DNA of 64,000 bases, taken from positions 1 through 64,000 of the forward strand of contig NZ_LQPM01000008.1 of assembly GCF_002101815.1 (NCBI RefSeq). Reading direction: 5' to 3'. Of the stretch, positions 31,131 to 34,288 are shown in pieces (the first letter of the stretch is position 1; every line of letters starts with the position of its first letter). This DNA comes from Mycobacterium paraense (lineage in GTDB: Bacteria; Actinomycetota; Actinomycetes; Mycobacteriales; Mycobacteriaceae). The position numbers were made by a program, and so were the translations under genes. The notes beneath the pieces are model-generated. The model saw only the letters and a list, made by a program, of their open reading frames with translations. It did no database searches and had not been told where the DNA came from.

Positions 31131-31790
31131 CTAATCCCCGGTGCGGCAGCTGATTTCCATGCTGTCACTCTCCCGGACGGAGAAGTTGAAGCTGACATAC
31201 CCGTTGTCCGGGTCGCGCACCCGGTCGAGGTAGGGCCGCATGTCCGCGGCGCTGGCGTTGTCGGCGACGATCAGCGCGCCCGTCGCAAGCCGCGGTTCGA
31301 GCAGCTCGAGCACCGGAAGGTACAGGTCCTTCCACCCGTCGAGCAGGACGAACTCAACGGGGCCGTCGAGGTTGTCCAGCGTGGTCAGCGCGTCCCCCTC
31401 GAGGATCGTGATCACGTCAGCCAAGCCGGTCTCGGCGAATGTCTGCTTGGCCGCGGCGATCTTGGGGGCGCTGAGCTCGGTGGTCACCACCCGGCCGGCG
31501 CCGTTGTCGCGCACCGCGGCGGCCAGGTGCACGGCGGAGATTCCGAACGACATACCGAATTCGACGACCGTCGCGGGCCGGGTGGCGCGCACCAGGGCGT
31601 AGAGCAGGCGACCGGCTTCCGGTGTCACGGGAATGTAGAACTCGCTCATCGCGTCGGCGCGTTCCTGTGCGCTCATCGGTCGGTCGAAATCACCAACCCG
31701 CTCGCGCAACCGCGACATCTGATCTTTCGTTTCGGCGTACATCCGGTCGAGCACCGTCGCGACGCCGGACGCCTGCAAAGTATTGGCCAT
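31131..31790 (-). CDS. Class I SAM-dependent O-methyltransferase
   Basis: A 219-residue methyltransferase of the caffeoyl-CoA/catechol O-methyltransferase-like group. The SAM-binding motif is VVEFGMSFGISAVHLAAAV, followed by the acidic VVTTE, EGDAL, and FVLLDGWKDLY with the metal-binding type Asp, then ADNASAAD. Substrate unknown. The start ATG at 31790 is preceded by TACCCT and exactly 7 bases, which suggests a leaderless transcript. It is divergent from the M-box leader and converges on the acyltransferase. Confidence 0.87.
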   Translation of the reverse strand: MANTLQASGVATVLDRMYAETKDQMSRLRERVGDFDRPMSAQERADAMSEFYIPVTPEAGRLLYALVRATRPATVVEFGMSFGISAVHLAAAVRDNGAGRVVTTELSAPKIAAAKQTFAETGLADVITILEGDALTTLDNLDGPVEFVLLDGWKDLYLPVLELLEPRLATGALIVADNASAADMRPYLDRVRDPDNGYVSFNFSVRESDSMEISCRTGD

Positions 31791-31797
31791 GCCGTCG

Positions 31798-31803
31798 AGG
31801 GTA
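31798..31803 (-). promoter_or_regulatory. Candidate -10 element of a leaderless promoter
   Basis: On the minus strand TACCCT is followed by 7 bases and then the ATG of the methyltransferase, the spacing expected if transcription starts at the A of the ATG. Confidence 0.45.
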
Positions 31804-31882
31804 GGCCTCGACCGACGGGCCGAAGGACGGGCCCGGTGGGCGCCGGTTAACGCAAACCCACGTCAAGGTTGCGTAAACGCGT

Positions 31883-31912
31883 TTGACGAGTACGAGGGCC
31901 GCCATGCAAGAT
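31883..31912 (+). promoter_or_regulatory. Candidate promoter of the M-box transcript
   Basis: TTGACG (31883-31888), 18 bases, CAAGAT (31907-31912). The predicted start near 31919 falls a few bases before the first paired base of the riboswitch, which supports the assignment. Confidence 0.5.
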
Positions 31913-31922
31913 GGACGAGCAA

Positions 31923-32091
31923 GCACCTCGGTAGGTGAGGCGTCTGCATGGATACAGGCCACTGACCCCGAACGTCGAGAGACGCCCCGGGTCAGGACAG
32001 CTCTTCCCGGACCCAAGGGTTGAGCCCAAGTGGCTTCTGGACGATGTTCCGGATACGCCGTGCAGTGCCGAAGCTCCGACGAGAGGGGTGC
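31923..32091 (+). promoter_or_regulatory. M-box (ykoK) magnesium riboswitch
   Basis: This leader matches the M-box consensus along its length: GTAGGTGAGGCGTCTGCATG, GATACAGGCCACTG, ACGTCGAGAGACGCC, GGGTCAGGACAG, then GATACGCCGTGCAGTGCCGA, AGCTCC and GACGAGAGG. The closing stem pairs GCACC/CTCG at the 5' end with CGAG/GGTGC at the 3' end. M-boxes bind several Mg2+ ions; at high Mg2+ the folded aptamer switches off the downstream genes. The regulated genes are a small protein and an NRAMP-related transporter. No intrinsic terminator with a U-run is seen between aptamer and genes, so Rho-dependent or translational control is likely. Confidence 0.93.
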
Positions 32092-32142
32092 GGCCGGCGG
32101 TTTGCCGCCGCCATTCGTGCCTCTCCCGTGCAGGTGAACGCG

Positions 32143-32178
32143 ATGACACCCGCGTGTGTCCCGGCCGTGAGGAGGTGA
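32143..32178 (+). CDS. Upstream ORF 1 in the M-box leader (11 codons)
   Basis: ATG 32143, preceded by CAGGTG 6 bases upstream, encodes MTPACVPAVRR. Its last codons AGG AGG TGA form the ribosome-binding site of the second upstream ORF, so terminating ribosomes would affect access to it. This is direct reading of the sequence; expression is not shown. Confidence 0.45.
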   Translation: MTPACVPAVRR

Positions 32179-32185
32179 GGACGAG

Positions 32186-32260
32186 ATGAGTCCCGGCGAC
32201 AGTCCCTATCCGAATTCCGTCTTGTCCCGATCCGGCTCCGGCATTCCTTCTGCCGCCTGA
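32186..32260 (+). CDS. Upstream ORF 2 in the M-box leader (24 codons, Ser/Pro-rich)
   Basis: ATG 32186 lies 10 bases after AGGAGG, a near-perfect ribosome site. The peptide begins MSPGDSPYP and is rich in Ser, Pro and Gly. Proline-containing leader peptides take part in Mg2+ control of mgtA in enterobacteria (MgtL), because low Mg2+ slows translation at such codons. A similar role here is inferred. Confidence 0.55.
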   Translation: MSPGDSPYPNSVLSRSGSGIPSAA

Positions 32261-32280
32261 CTTCTCGGGTGCTCATGCGA

Positions 32281-32312
32281 GACCCCACGCGTGCGAACGC
32301 GTTGCGGGGGTC
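32281..32312 (+). promoter_or_regulatory. Hairpin between upstream ORF 2 and the small gene
   Basis: GACCCC/ACGCGT, loop GCGA, ACGCGT/GGGGTC with a small internal loop. It may be part of the expression platform or an anti-sequestering structure. There is no T-run, so it is not an ordinary intrinsic terminator. Confidence 0.4.
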
Positions 32313-32357
32313 GTTGCGGATGCCACGAGCCGATCGGACCTGCGTCAGGAGAAGATC

Positions 32358-32555
32358 ATGGCTTTTGTTGTTACACACCGCCTTTCCAGCGGCTCAATGC
32401 TGCGTGCGGGCCGGCAGTTTGCGGCCAGGCTGGGCGCGCGGAGCGCCCTGACTCCGCAGGAGCGCGCCAACCTGTACGTCTCGCGGATGCCGATCGCGGT
32501 GGTCACCGCCTCGCTCGGCGGCCATCCGTCGGACCGGCCGGCCGACCACCGGTGA
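32358..32555 (+). CDS. Small basic protein controlled by the M-box
   Basis: A 65-residue protein from ATG 32358 with AGGAG 8 bases upstream. The sequence MAFVVTHRLSSGSMLRAG, then LGARSALTPQERANLYVSRM, is non-random and ends in a hydrophilic tail. In M. tuberculosis an M-box precedes Rv1535, a similarly small protein of unknown function. I suspect the two are related but cannot check. The stop overlaps the transporter's GTG (GTGA), so translation of the transporter is probably coupled to this gene. Confidence 0.75.
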   Translation: MAFVVTHRLSSGSMLRAGRQFAARLGARSALTPQERANLYVSRMPIAVVTASLGGHPSDRPADHR

Positions 32556-34288
32556 CCAGCTCGGTCCCGACCCGCGGCGGTCCCGGCGACCAGGCCGTGC
32601 TGGATTCCGCGCACACCGGCGACATCGTCGGTGCGTTCGGCCGCATCCGGCGCGACGGCACCGGCGCGTCCGGGGCCGCCGCGGGGGGCTGGGCGCGCCT
32701 GCGCACCCTGCTCGTCATCACCGGTCCCGGCCTGATCGTCATGGTGGGCGACAACGACGCCGGCGGCGTCGCGACCTACGCGCAGGCGGGCCAGAACTAC
32801 GGGATGGGCCTGTTGTGGACGCTGGCGCTGCTGATCCCGGTGTTGTACGTGAACCAGGAAATGGTGCTGCGGCTGGGCGCGGTCACCCGGGTTGGTCACG
32901 CCCGGTTGATCTTCGAGCGCTTCGGCAGGTTCTGGGGCGCGTTCAGCGTCGGTGATCTGCTGATCCTCAACGCCCTGACCATCGTCACCGAATTCATCGG
33001 TGTAGCACTGGCACTCGGCTTTTTAGGCTGCCCCAAGGCGATCGCCATCCCCGCCGCCGCGGTGTTGTTGTTCGCCGTGGTGGCCGGGGGCTCGTTCCGC
33101 CGCTGGGAAGGCCTGATGTTCCTGCTGATCGCGGTGAACGTGGTGATCATCCCGATGGTGCTGATGGTGCATCCCAAGCTGAAGGAAACCGCCGGCGGCC
33201 TGATGCCGCAGTTCCCGGGTGGGCTCAACTCCACCGTCCTGCTGCTGGTCGTCGCGATCGTGGGCACCACCGTCGCGCCGTGGCAGCTGTTCTTTCAGCA
33301 GTCCAATGTCGTGGACAAGCGCATTACGGCCCGCTGGATCTCCTACGCGCGAGCCGATTTGGTGATCGGCATCGTCGTCGTGATGGCGGGGGCGACGGCG
33401 TTGATGGCCGTGACGGCGTTCGGGTTCGCCGGCACGGCCGGCGTCAGTGCCTTCACCGATGCCGGGGCGGTCGCGTCGGGGCTGGCCCGGCACCTCGGTA
33501 GCACGGTCGGGGTGCTCTTCGCGATCATCCTGCTGGACGCCTCGCTGATCGGCGCCAACGCGATCGGATTGGCCACCACCTATGCCATCGGGGACGCGCT
33601 GGGCAGGCGGCACTCGCTGCACTGGAAGATCAGCGAGGCCCCGCTGTTCTATGGCGGCTACGCGCTCCTGCTCGCGGTGTCCGCCGCGGTCGCGTTCAGC
33701 CCCGACCACATCCTCGGCCTGGTGACCCAGGGCGTGCAGGCCCTCGCCGGCGTCCTGCTGCCCTCGGCGACCGTGTTCCTCGTGCTGCTGTGCAACGACC
33801 GCGCGGTGCTCGGCCCGTGGGTAAACACGGTGCGGCAGAACGTCGTCGCGTGGACCATCGTGTGGTGCCTGGTGTTGTTGTCGCTCGCCCTGACGGCGAC
33901 GACCTTCTTTCCCGGCCTTTCGACGACCACGATCGAGGCCGGCCTGGCCGTTGGCGCCGCGACCGGCATCGTGGGCGGCGCCGCGACGATTGTCGCCGGC
34001 CGGCGCCACCGCGACCGGCGCGACGCCGAGGCGATCGTCGGGACGCTGGGCGGTGGCCTGGACCCCGAGGAGGTCGACGAGCTCGACGACACCCCGTCAC
34101 TGACCCCCGCCGAACGGCGCGCCGTGCGGCGACAGGACCGGTCGAGGTGGCAGACGCCAAGCCTCGCCACGCTTTCCCGGCCACGCCTGTCGCCCGCCCG
34201 CCGGGCGGGACTGCTCACCCTGCGCGGCTATCTGGTGGTCGCGGTCGTATTCGTGATCGTCAAGATCGTGCAGGCGGGGATGGCCTGA
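32552..34288 (+). CDS. NRAMP-related transporter, probable Mg2+ importer (NRMT type)
   Basis: A 578-residue SLC11/NRAMP-superfamily membrane protein with about eleven to twelve helices and a basic, hydrophilic C-terminal region (RRAVRRQDRSRW) before a last helix. In TM1 the canonical DPGN is replaced by VGDNDAGGVATY (Asp67-Asn68-Asp69). In TM6 the canonical MPH is APW (VGTTVAPWQLFFQQS, Ala242), so the methionine that favours Mn2+/Fe2+ is missing. These are traits of NRAMP-related magnesium transporters, and the M-box upstream independently points to Mg2+. GTG 32552 overlaps the small gene's stop. The name mntH would be misleading. Confidence 0.9.
   Translation: MTSSVPTRGGPGDQAVLDSAHTGDIVGAFGRIRRDGTGASGAAAGGWARLRTLLVITGPGLIVMVGDNDAGGVATYAQAGQNYGMGLLWTLALLIPVLYVNQEMVLRLGAVTRVGHARLIFERFGRFWGAFSVGDLLILNALTIVTEFIGVALALGFLGCPKAIAIPAAAVLLFAVVAGGSFRRWEGLMFLLIAVNVVIIPMVLMVHPKLKETAGGLMPQFPGGLNSTVLLLVVAIVGTTVAPWQLFFQQSNVVDKRITARWISYARADLVIGIVVVMAGATALMAVTAFGFAGTAGVSAFTDAGAVASGLARHLGSTVGVLFAIILLDASLIGANAIGLATTYAIGDALGRRHSLHWKISEAPLFYGGYALLLAVSAAVAFSPDHILGLVTQGVQALAGVLLPSATVFLVLLCNDRAVLGPWVNTVRQNVVAWTIVWCLVLLSLALTATTFFPGLSTTTIEAGLAVGAATGIVGGAATIVAGRRHRDRRDAEAIVGTLGGGLDPEEVDELDDTPSLTPAERRAVRRQDRSRWQTPSLATLSRPRLSPARRAGLLTLRGYLVVAVVFVIVKIVQAGMA

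Follow-up and report, generated by a model that had tools for sequence, protein, structure and literature searches.

An M-box riboswitch upstream of two small open reading frames and an NRMT-type transporter, predicted to import Mg2+, in Mycobacterium paraense

The 64,000-nucleotide stretch of Mycobacterium paraense DNA studied here (contig NZ_LQPM01000008.1, positions 1 to 64,000; hereafter the window) carries an M-box (ykoK) riboswitch aptamer, two small open reading frames (ORFs) and an SLC11-type transporter of the NRAMP-related magnesium transporter (NRMT) branch. A first-pass annotation of the bare sequence had described a two-gene unit ending in an SLC11 transporter. The transporter holds, but the gene count does not: behind the M-box come an upstream ORF of 24 aa (uORF2), a 65-aa ORF1 and the transporter, three ORFs in all. 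The locus is most probably a Mg2+ uptake operon induced by Mg2+ starvation. Its features, with Shine-Dalgarno elements abbreviated as SD, are as follows.

31883..31912, +, candidate promoter: TTGACG at 31883-31888, an 18-nt spacer and TG-CAAGAT at 31905-31912
31920..32094, +, M-box (ykoK) Mg2+ riboswitch aptamer, full-length match to RF00380
32081..32090, +, SD1 (anti-anti-SD), GAGAGGGGTG, the 3′ strand of the closing helix at the end of the aptamer
32120..32127, +, anti-SD, CCTCTCCC, CU-rich, predicted partner of either SD1 or SD2
32170..32179, +, SD2, AGGAGGTGAG, serving uORF2 and conserved in orthologues
32186..32260, +, uORF2, 24 aa, MSPGDSPYPNSVLSRSGSGIPSAA, Rv1805A-like, in all orthologous loci
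32358..32555, +, ORF1, 65 aa, core LTPQERANLYVSRMPIAVVTASLGGH, a conserved small protein
32552..34288, +, NRMT-type SLC11 transporter, 578 aa, GTG start, assigned by Pfam Nramp, the DxxG/TxxA site, tree and fold

The M-box and the NRMT-type transporter

In a cmscan of the window, the covariance model RF00380 matches the plus strand at 31920-32094 with a score of 142.1 bits (cut-off 44; E = 4.4e-32). The match spans model positions 1-169 of 169 with zero non-standard pairs flagged, and it is the sole Rfam match above the gathering cut-off within the window. The first-pass annotation had placed an M-box at 31923-32091, to be abandoned if no significant covariance match was found; the match is significant and its boundaries agree within 3 nt. 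The source genome has three M-boxes, counting the window copy. A TTGAC box lies 35-38 nt 5′ of the aptamer in 32 of 32 M-box loci of the genus. The candidate promoter that includes this box goes unreported in a generic sigma-70 scan of the leader, because its −10 element is weak.

The transporter matches Pfam Nramp (E = 9e-71), and its best sequence match in the PDB is EleNRMT (7QIA, E = 1.7e-54), compared with 1.2e-13 for the best classical NRAMP. The NRMT site consists of DxxG with TxxA/T, and Trp and Asn replace two histidines of the proton path (Ramanadane 2022, PMC8806188). In the window protein, D69/G72 (D69AGG72) and T239/A242 (T239TVA242) form the ion site in the same alignment columns as in EleNRMT. 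Both histidines of the proton path in TM6b (TM, transmembrane helix) are lost, being W244 and Q249 here and W and N in EleNRMT. The motif readings of the first-pass annotation were also right: DAGG in TM1 aligns with DPGN, and TTVAPW in TM6 with ATVMPH, of the MntH encoded in the same genome. The window protein thus has DAGG ... TTVA-PW in place of the classical NRAMP/MntH motif, DPGN ... (A/C)xxM-PH, and the NCBIfam MntH model gives the protein 93.7 bits, far under its cut-off of 430. Every M-box-linked relative aligned has the same NRMT signature as EleNRMT; aligned relatives at about 47-94% identity share the TM6 site and have DAG(G/A) in TM1.

In a maximum-likelihood tree of 88 proteins, a branch with 100% support in the Shimodaira-Hasegawa-like approximate likelihood ratio test (SH-aLRT) splits classical NRAMPs from the EleNRMT side, which holds the window protein. 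The tree was built by a quick method without the Clostridium acetobutylicum and A. capsulatum proteins, and EleNRMT has a long branch and is the sole functionally proven NRMT in it. The AlphaFold2 model (predicted local distance difference test, pLDDT, 80.3) is closest in Foldseek to EleNRMT (6.5e-17, target TM-score 0.87-0.88), followed by DraNramp (7.5e-13). The grouping with Mn2+ transporters that would have told against the first-pass annotation is therefore not seen at the sequence level; the protein groups with EleNRMT. It shares with EleNRMT and C. acetobutylicum NrmT the SLC11 fold, the DxxG-TxxA site and the loss of the classical Met and His (PMC8806188, PMC4072509), and Clostridium NrmT is likewise under an M-box (Shin 2014, PMC4072509). 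It differs from EleNRMT in an extra C-terminal helix and has about 33% identity with it. The window operon differs from NrmT/NRMT systems in having no MgtE_N partner gene, and also in that two small conserved ORFs separate its switch from the transporter.

Linkage of the transporter to an M-box is conserved. In 149 genomes of the genus, close orthologues (about 68-94% identity) are set apart from paralogues at 51-60% and relatives at about 35%; 30 orthologous loci were retrieved (the window locus and 29 others). A same-strand M-box lies about 0.4-0.9 kb upstream in 30/30 of these loci, and the transporter is present downstream in every one. Named carriers include M. interjectum, M. colombiense, M. 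scrofulaceum, M. gordonae, M. simiae, M. asiaticum and M. szulgai, the M-box having been checked at four such loci (L067, L084, L086 and L099; G, C and L numbers are our handles for genomes, contigs and loci). An M-box also precedes 17 of the 18 loci L090-L107, which are mainly from Nocardia, other mycobacteria, Kutzneria and Streptacidiphilus (about 66-71% identity except L099). At 47-57% identity it was found in 9 of the 38 loci searched (Streptomyces, Kitasatospora, Alicyclobacillus and metagenome-assembled genomes of Actinobacteria) and in none of the Pseudomonadota relatives among them. The tie to Mg2+ regulation is thus an old one that recurs in Gram-positive bacteria. Two genomes that each consist of a single contig (3,268,203 and 3,271,694 bp; L184 and L183) keep the M-box with weaker scores (95.3 and 84.6 bits), as well as the uORF and an uninterrupted transporter frame; ORF1 scores 45.5 bits in the first and only 14.8 in the second. 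The size of the first is presumably that of the strongly decayed M. leprae TN genome. An intact transporter frame within this module in an M. leprae-sized genome suggests selection in a host-restricted species.

The source genome encodes four Nramp-domain proteins: the window NRMT, a classical MntH (C19), an NRMT paralogue (C51) and a 35% relative (C30) that keeps the Met. The C51 paralogue (L175, G000:C51:72000-86000) lies directly behind a PRC/MgtE_N/CBS-type gene, whose Pfam domains were shown on homologues, and no M-box was found in the 1.5 kb flanks searched. As the genome has a single CorA and no MgtE membrane domain, the window NRMT would fill a gap and is probably the main regulated Mg2+ importer of the genome. 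In three other genomes (L178, L179 and L180, in G117, G071 and G046), PE/PPE and ESX-like genes are mixed with several M-boxes, NRMT paralogues and MgtE_N/CBS genes in apparent magnesium islands.

Leader elements and predicted switching

M-boxes usually control transcription by means of an intrinsic terminator; B. subtilis ykoK, which drives MgtE, is an example. The window aptamer belongs to the same family and would likewise follow the logic of a Mg2+ off-switch, but its leader shows small ORFs with ribosome-binding sites and no visible terminator. A scan of 31780-32600 found zero terminator-like sites, and an intrinsic terminator in the leader was rejected on this ground. The layout resembles that of the mycobacterial pe20/rv1805A M-boxes (PMC12810186), sharing the aptamer, the SD1/anti-SD/SD2 layout and an Rv1805A-like uORF. 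In M. tuberculosis pe20, the anti-SD masks SD2 unless SD1 captures the anti-SD, and termination is Rho-dependent (PMC12810186). At the window locus SD1, anti-SD, SD2 and the uORF occur in pe20-type order. SD1 is nearly invariant across the 30 orthologous loci, its position matches SD1 of pe20 (PMC12810186), and its pairing is predicted by folding. The CU-rich anti-SD is present in nearly all aligned orthologues. SD2 is strongly conserved, 65-86 nt 3′ of the aptamer in mycobacterial orthologues (191 nt in L021).

A consensus RNAalifold structure of the leader was weak and uninformative owing to variation in the hairpin that separates SD1 from the anti-SD, and ensemble folding with shuffled controls was chosen for this reason. 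We folded 30 leaders (29 orthologous and one rv1535-type locus) with and without SD1. Mean SD2 sequestration is 0.67 with SD1 withheld, as in a closed aptamer, and 0.32 with SD1 free, compared with 0.47 and 0.41 in shuffled leaders (P = 6e-4, Wilcoxon test). Prior to SD2 synthesis, the mean pairing probability of SD1 is 0.83. For the window leader itself the picture is ambiguous. With 40 nt of downstream sequence, SD2 is sequestered at equilibrium in both SD1 states (0.82 and 0.83), and the SD1/anti-SD helix appears only in folds that end before SD2 or soon after it. Since the equilibrium fold sequesters SD2 either way, the case for switching in this leader draws on the order of folding and on the orthologous leaders.

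In the proposed mechanism the aptamer would bind intracellular Mg2+. At high Mg2+ the closing helix would form and lock up SD1, so that the anti-SD pairs with SD2; the uORF would stay untranslated and Rho would probably terminate the leader. When Mg2+ is low, the closing helix would open, SD1 would capture the anti-SD and SD2 would be free. The uORF and then ORF1 would be translated, and transcription and translation would run on into the transporter gene, which starts with a GTG that overlaps the stop of ORF1. The NRMT-branch protein would then import Mg2+; it can probably carry Mn2+ as well, and probably works without proton coupling. We favor such translational and Rho-dependent control of the operon, with reservations. 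Classical termination at an intrinsic terminator would have in its favor that it is the usual M-box mechanism and that a GC-rich inverted repeat, GACCCC...GGGGTC, lies near 32282-32313. However, the scan of 31780-32600 was negative for terminator-like sites, and the SD1/anti-SD/SD2 arrangement, experimentally shown for pe20 (PMC12810186), is conserved at the window locus; we consider this mechanism unlikely here.

The substrate of the transporter

Four mycobacterial M-box classes have been described, one of which, absent from M. tuberculosis, is a ‘Mn2+-type’ with manganese-transporter-type genes (D'Halluin 2026, PMC12810186). The window locus very probably belongs to this class. It departs from the published description (PMC12810186) in that its target is an NRMT with Mg2+, rather than Mn2+, as predicted substrate and in that it has the additional conserved ORF1. 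The covariance match, the grouping with EleNRMT and the conserved M-box linkage together make Mg2+ rather than Mn2+ the well-supported prediction; EleNRMT is a demonstrated Mg2+ transporter (PMC8806188).

Several observations pull the other way. EleNRMT carries Mn2+ besides Mg2+ (PMC8806188), and with the NrmT of A. capsulatum, which has no M-box, it was Mn2+ uptake rather than Mg2+ uptake that was well rescued (PMC4072509). An MgtE_N companion is reported for most NrmT genes (Shin 2014, PMC4072509); this partner, common but not obligatory, is absent at the window locus and was found beside the C51 paralogue and its relatives. Our literature search found no transport, expression or reporter data on any mycobacterial NRMT. 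One could therefore take the protein to be physiologically an importer of Mn2+ or of transition metals in general, with the M-box only reporting overall divalent-cation status. The ‘Mn2+-type’ label (PMC12810186) implies as much, the Mn2+ activities of EleNRMT (PMC8806188) and A. capsulatum NrmT (PMC4072509) agree with it, and the nearest NCBIfam model is MntH, though below its cut-off. However, the Met, Asn and His that Mn2+ transporters have in the binding site are missing here, a classical MntH (L004) is encoded elsewhere in the genome, the A. capsulatum protein has no M-box whereas the window branch is linked to one in 30/30 loci, and an MgtA-type Mg2+ ATPase is driven by this leader cassette as well. 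We regard a mainly Mn2+-importing role as quite improbable.

The transporter is very likely a Mg2+ importer under M-box control, as judged from its sequence. The first-pass annotation had called it a probably Mg2+-specific importer: M-box, NRMT site, tree and fold support the importer, but Mn2+ transport by EleNRMT does not allow ‘specific’, so that ‘Mg2+-importing’ is the defensible wording, itself well supported. The same annotation expected automatic pipelines to label the protein MntH. This is partly right: the literature does call the class manganese-type (PMC12810186), but the NCBIfam MntH model stays below its cut-off, and relatives on plasmids go under the name ‘Nramp family divalent metal transporter’.

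The two small ORFs and their cassette

uORF2 is present in 30/30 orthologous loci, at the other two M-box loci of the source genome and in other genera. The proportions of nonsynonymous and synonymous differences are pN 0.197 and pS 0.271; at a ratio of about 0.73 its protein-level constraint is weak, and its conservation may reflect constraint on the RNA. The uORF peptide has been called mycobacteria-specific (D'Halluin 2026, PMC12810186). Contrary to this, we found both uORF2 and ORF1 outside Mycobacterium, with uORF2 peptides of the type (S/K)(S/P)GDSPYPS in Nocardia and other genera.

ORF1 is likewise present in 30/30 orthologous loci, and its stop is overlapped by the transporter GTG (GTGA, 32552-32555). 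Over the full length, pN/pS of both small ORFs is little below 1. Clear protein-level selection is seen for the ORF1 core only, with pN 0.149 and pS 0.375 (0.038 and 0.308 in the TPQER subset, comparable to 0.048 and 0.424 in the transporter). ORF1 has zero Pfam or NCBIfam matches, and an ORF1 profile gave 39 matches in 35 of 201 genomes of the family. Eighteen of the 39 have a same-strand M-box 0.2-0.5 kb upstream; the remaining 21 do not, and ORF1 was rejected as a strict M-box marker. It was rejected as a transporter marker too, since it follows M-boxes in 7 genomes that have no close NRMT. ORF1 was not found behind rv1535-type M-boxes or in the pe20-type leader examined. ORF1-like small proteins without a nearby M-box occur at L203, L204 and L205 (G177, G230 and G243) and at L206, L207, L208 and L209. 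The protein that sits after the Mg2+ ATPase in G301 and G328 comes next to ORF1, on its downstream side, in G319 and G271, which looks like a loss of the M-box and the ATPase from around ORF1.

The core of ORF1, TPQERxNL...TPxAVxxASLGGH, goes with M-boxes in various genera of the Mycobacteriales (L191-L202 and L210). The gene after the cassette is a TIGR01524 Mg2+ P-type ATPase (MgtA-type) in G328 (L196, checked), a Mg2+ P-type ATPase by likeness of sequence type at L195 and L197, an MgtE_N gene plus NRMT in G174 and a Met-containing NRAMP in G173; an MFS-like protein (major facilitator superfamily), identified by eye, lies further downstream in G169 and G210. The M-box-uORF-ORF1 cassette is therefore specific to neither Mycobacterium nor NRMT, as it precedes an ATPase, an MgtE_N/NRMT pair and another NRAMP elsewhere. 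The G173 locus (L200, G173:C12:553000-560000) has an M-box before an NRAMP-like protein with DAGS ... GAVVM-PW, in which the TM6 methionine is kept; it is a possible exception to the rule that an M-box means no Met. In the papers searched we found no description of ORF1, or of such a cassette before varied transporters.

That the two peptides are the real output of the switch and the transporter is made mainly from an internal promoter is very improbable, even though the M. tuberculosis uORF is expressed >10-fold above pe20 (PMC12810186) and ORF1 stays with the M-box where an NRMT is lacking, because the ORF1 stop overlaps the transporter start, the transporter follows in every orthologous locus and 31780-32600 holds zero promoter-like matches. 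Within a Mg2+ uptake operon the small ORFs recall enterobacterial mgtL, corL and mgtQ, likewise short ORFs with Pro or acidic residues that come after a Mg2+-responsive leader and before the gene of a Mg2+ transporter. The sequences are unrelated, and uORF2 (MSPGDSPYP) has spaced prolines and one acidic residue only; by this analogy a ribosome-destabilizing role of uORF2 would be speculation. We raise as a tentative idea that uORF2 and ORF1 form a general Mycobacteriales two-peptide cassette for Mg2+ uptake, in which ORF1 would be functional, for example by regulating the importer that follows, and uORF2 would be an mgtL-like, proline-based leader peptide that reads Mg2+. If this is true, uORF2 translation would be a second, ribosome-based Mg2+ sensor beside the RNA sensor.

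An M-box in front of NrmT was known from Clostridium (Shin 2014, PMC4072509), and the mycobacterial class had been published under the ‘Mn2+-type’ label (D'Halluin 2026, PMC12810186). Three points are added here: this class is re-assigned to Mg2+ instead of Mn2+, it reaches deep into the Actinobacteria, and unrelated Mg2+ transporters have a two-ORF cassette in common. The published ‘Mn2+-type’ mycobacterial M-boxes can be re-read as controlling Mg2+ importers. The cassette of ORF1 and the Rv1805A-like uORF also offers a handle on the unexplained Rv1805A peptide: since Rv1805A relatives and ORF1 precede a recognized Mg2+ ATPase in other genera, a role should be sought in general Mg2+ uptake and not in PE/PPE biology.

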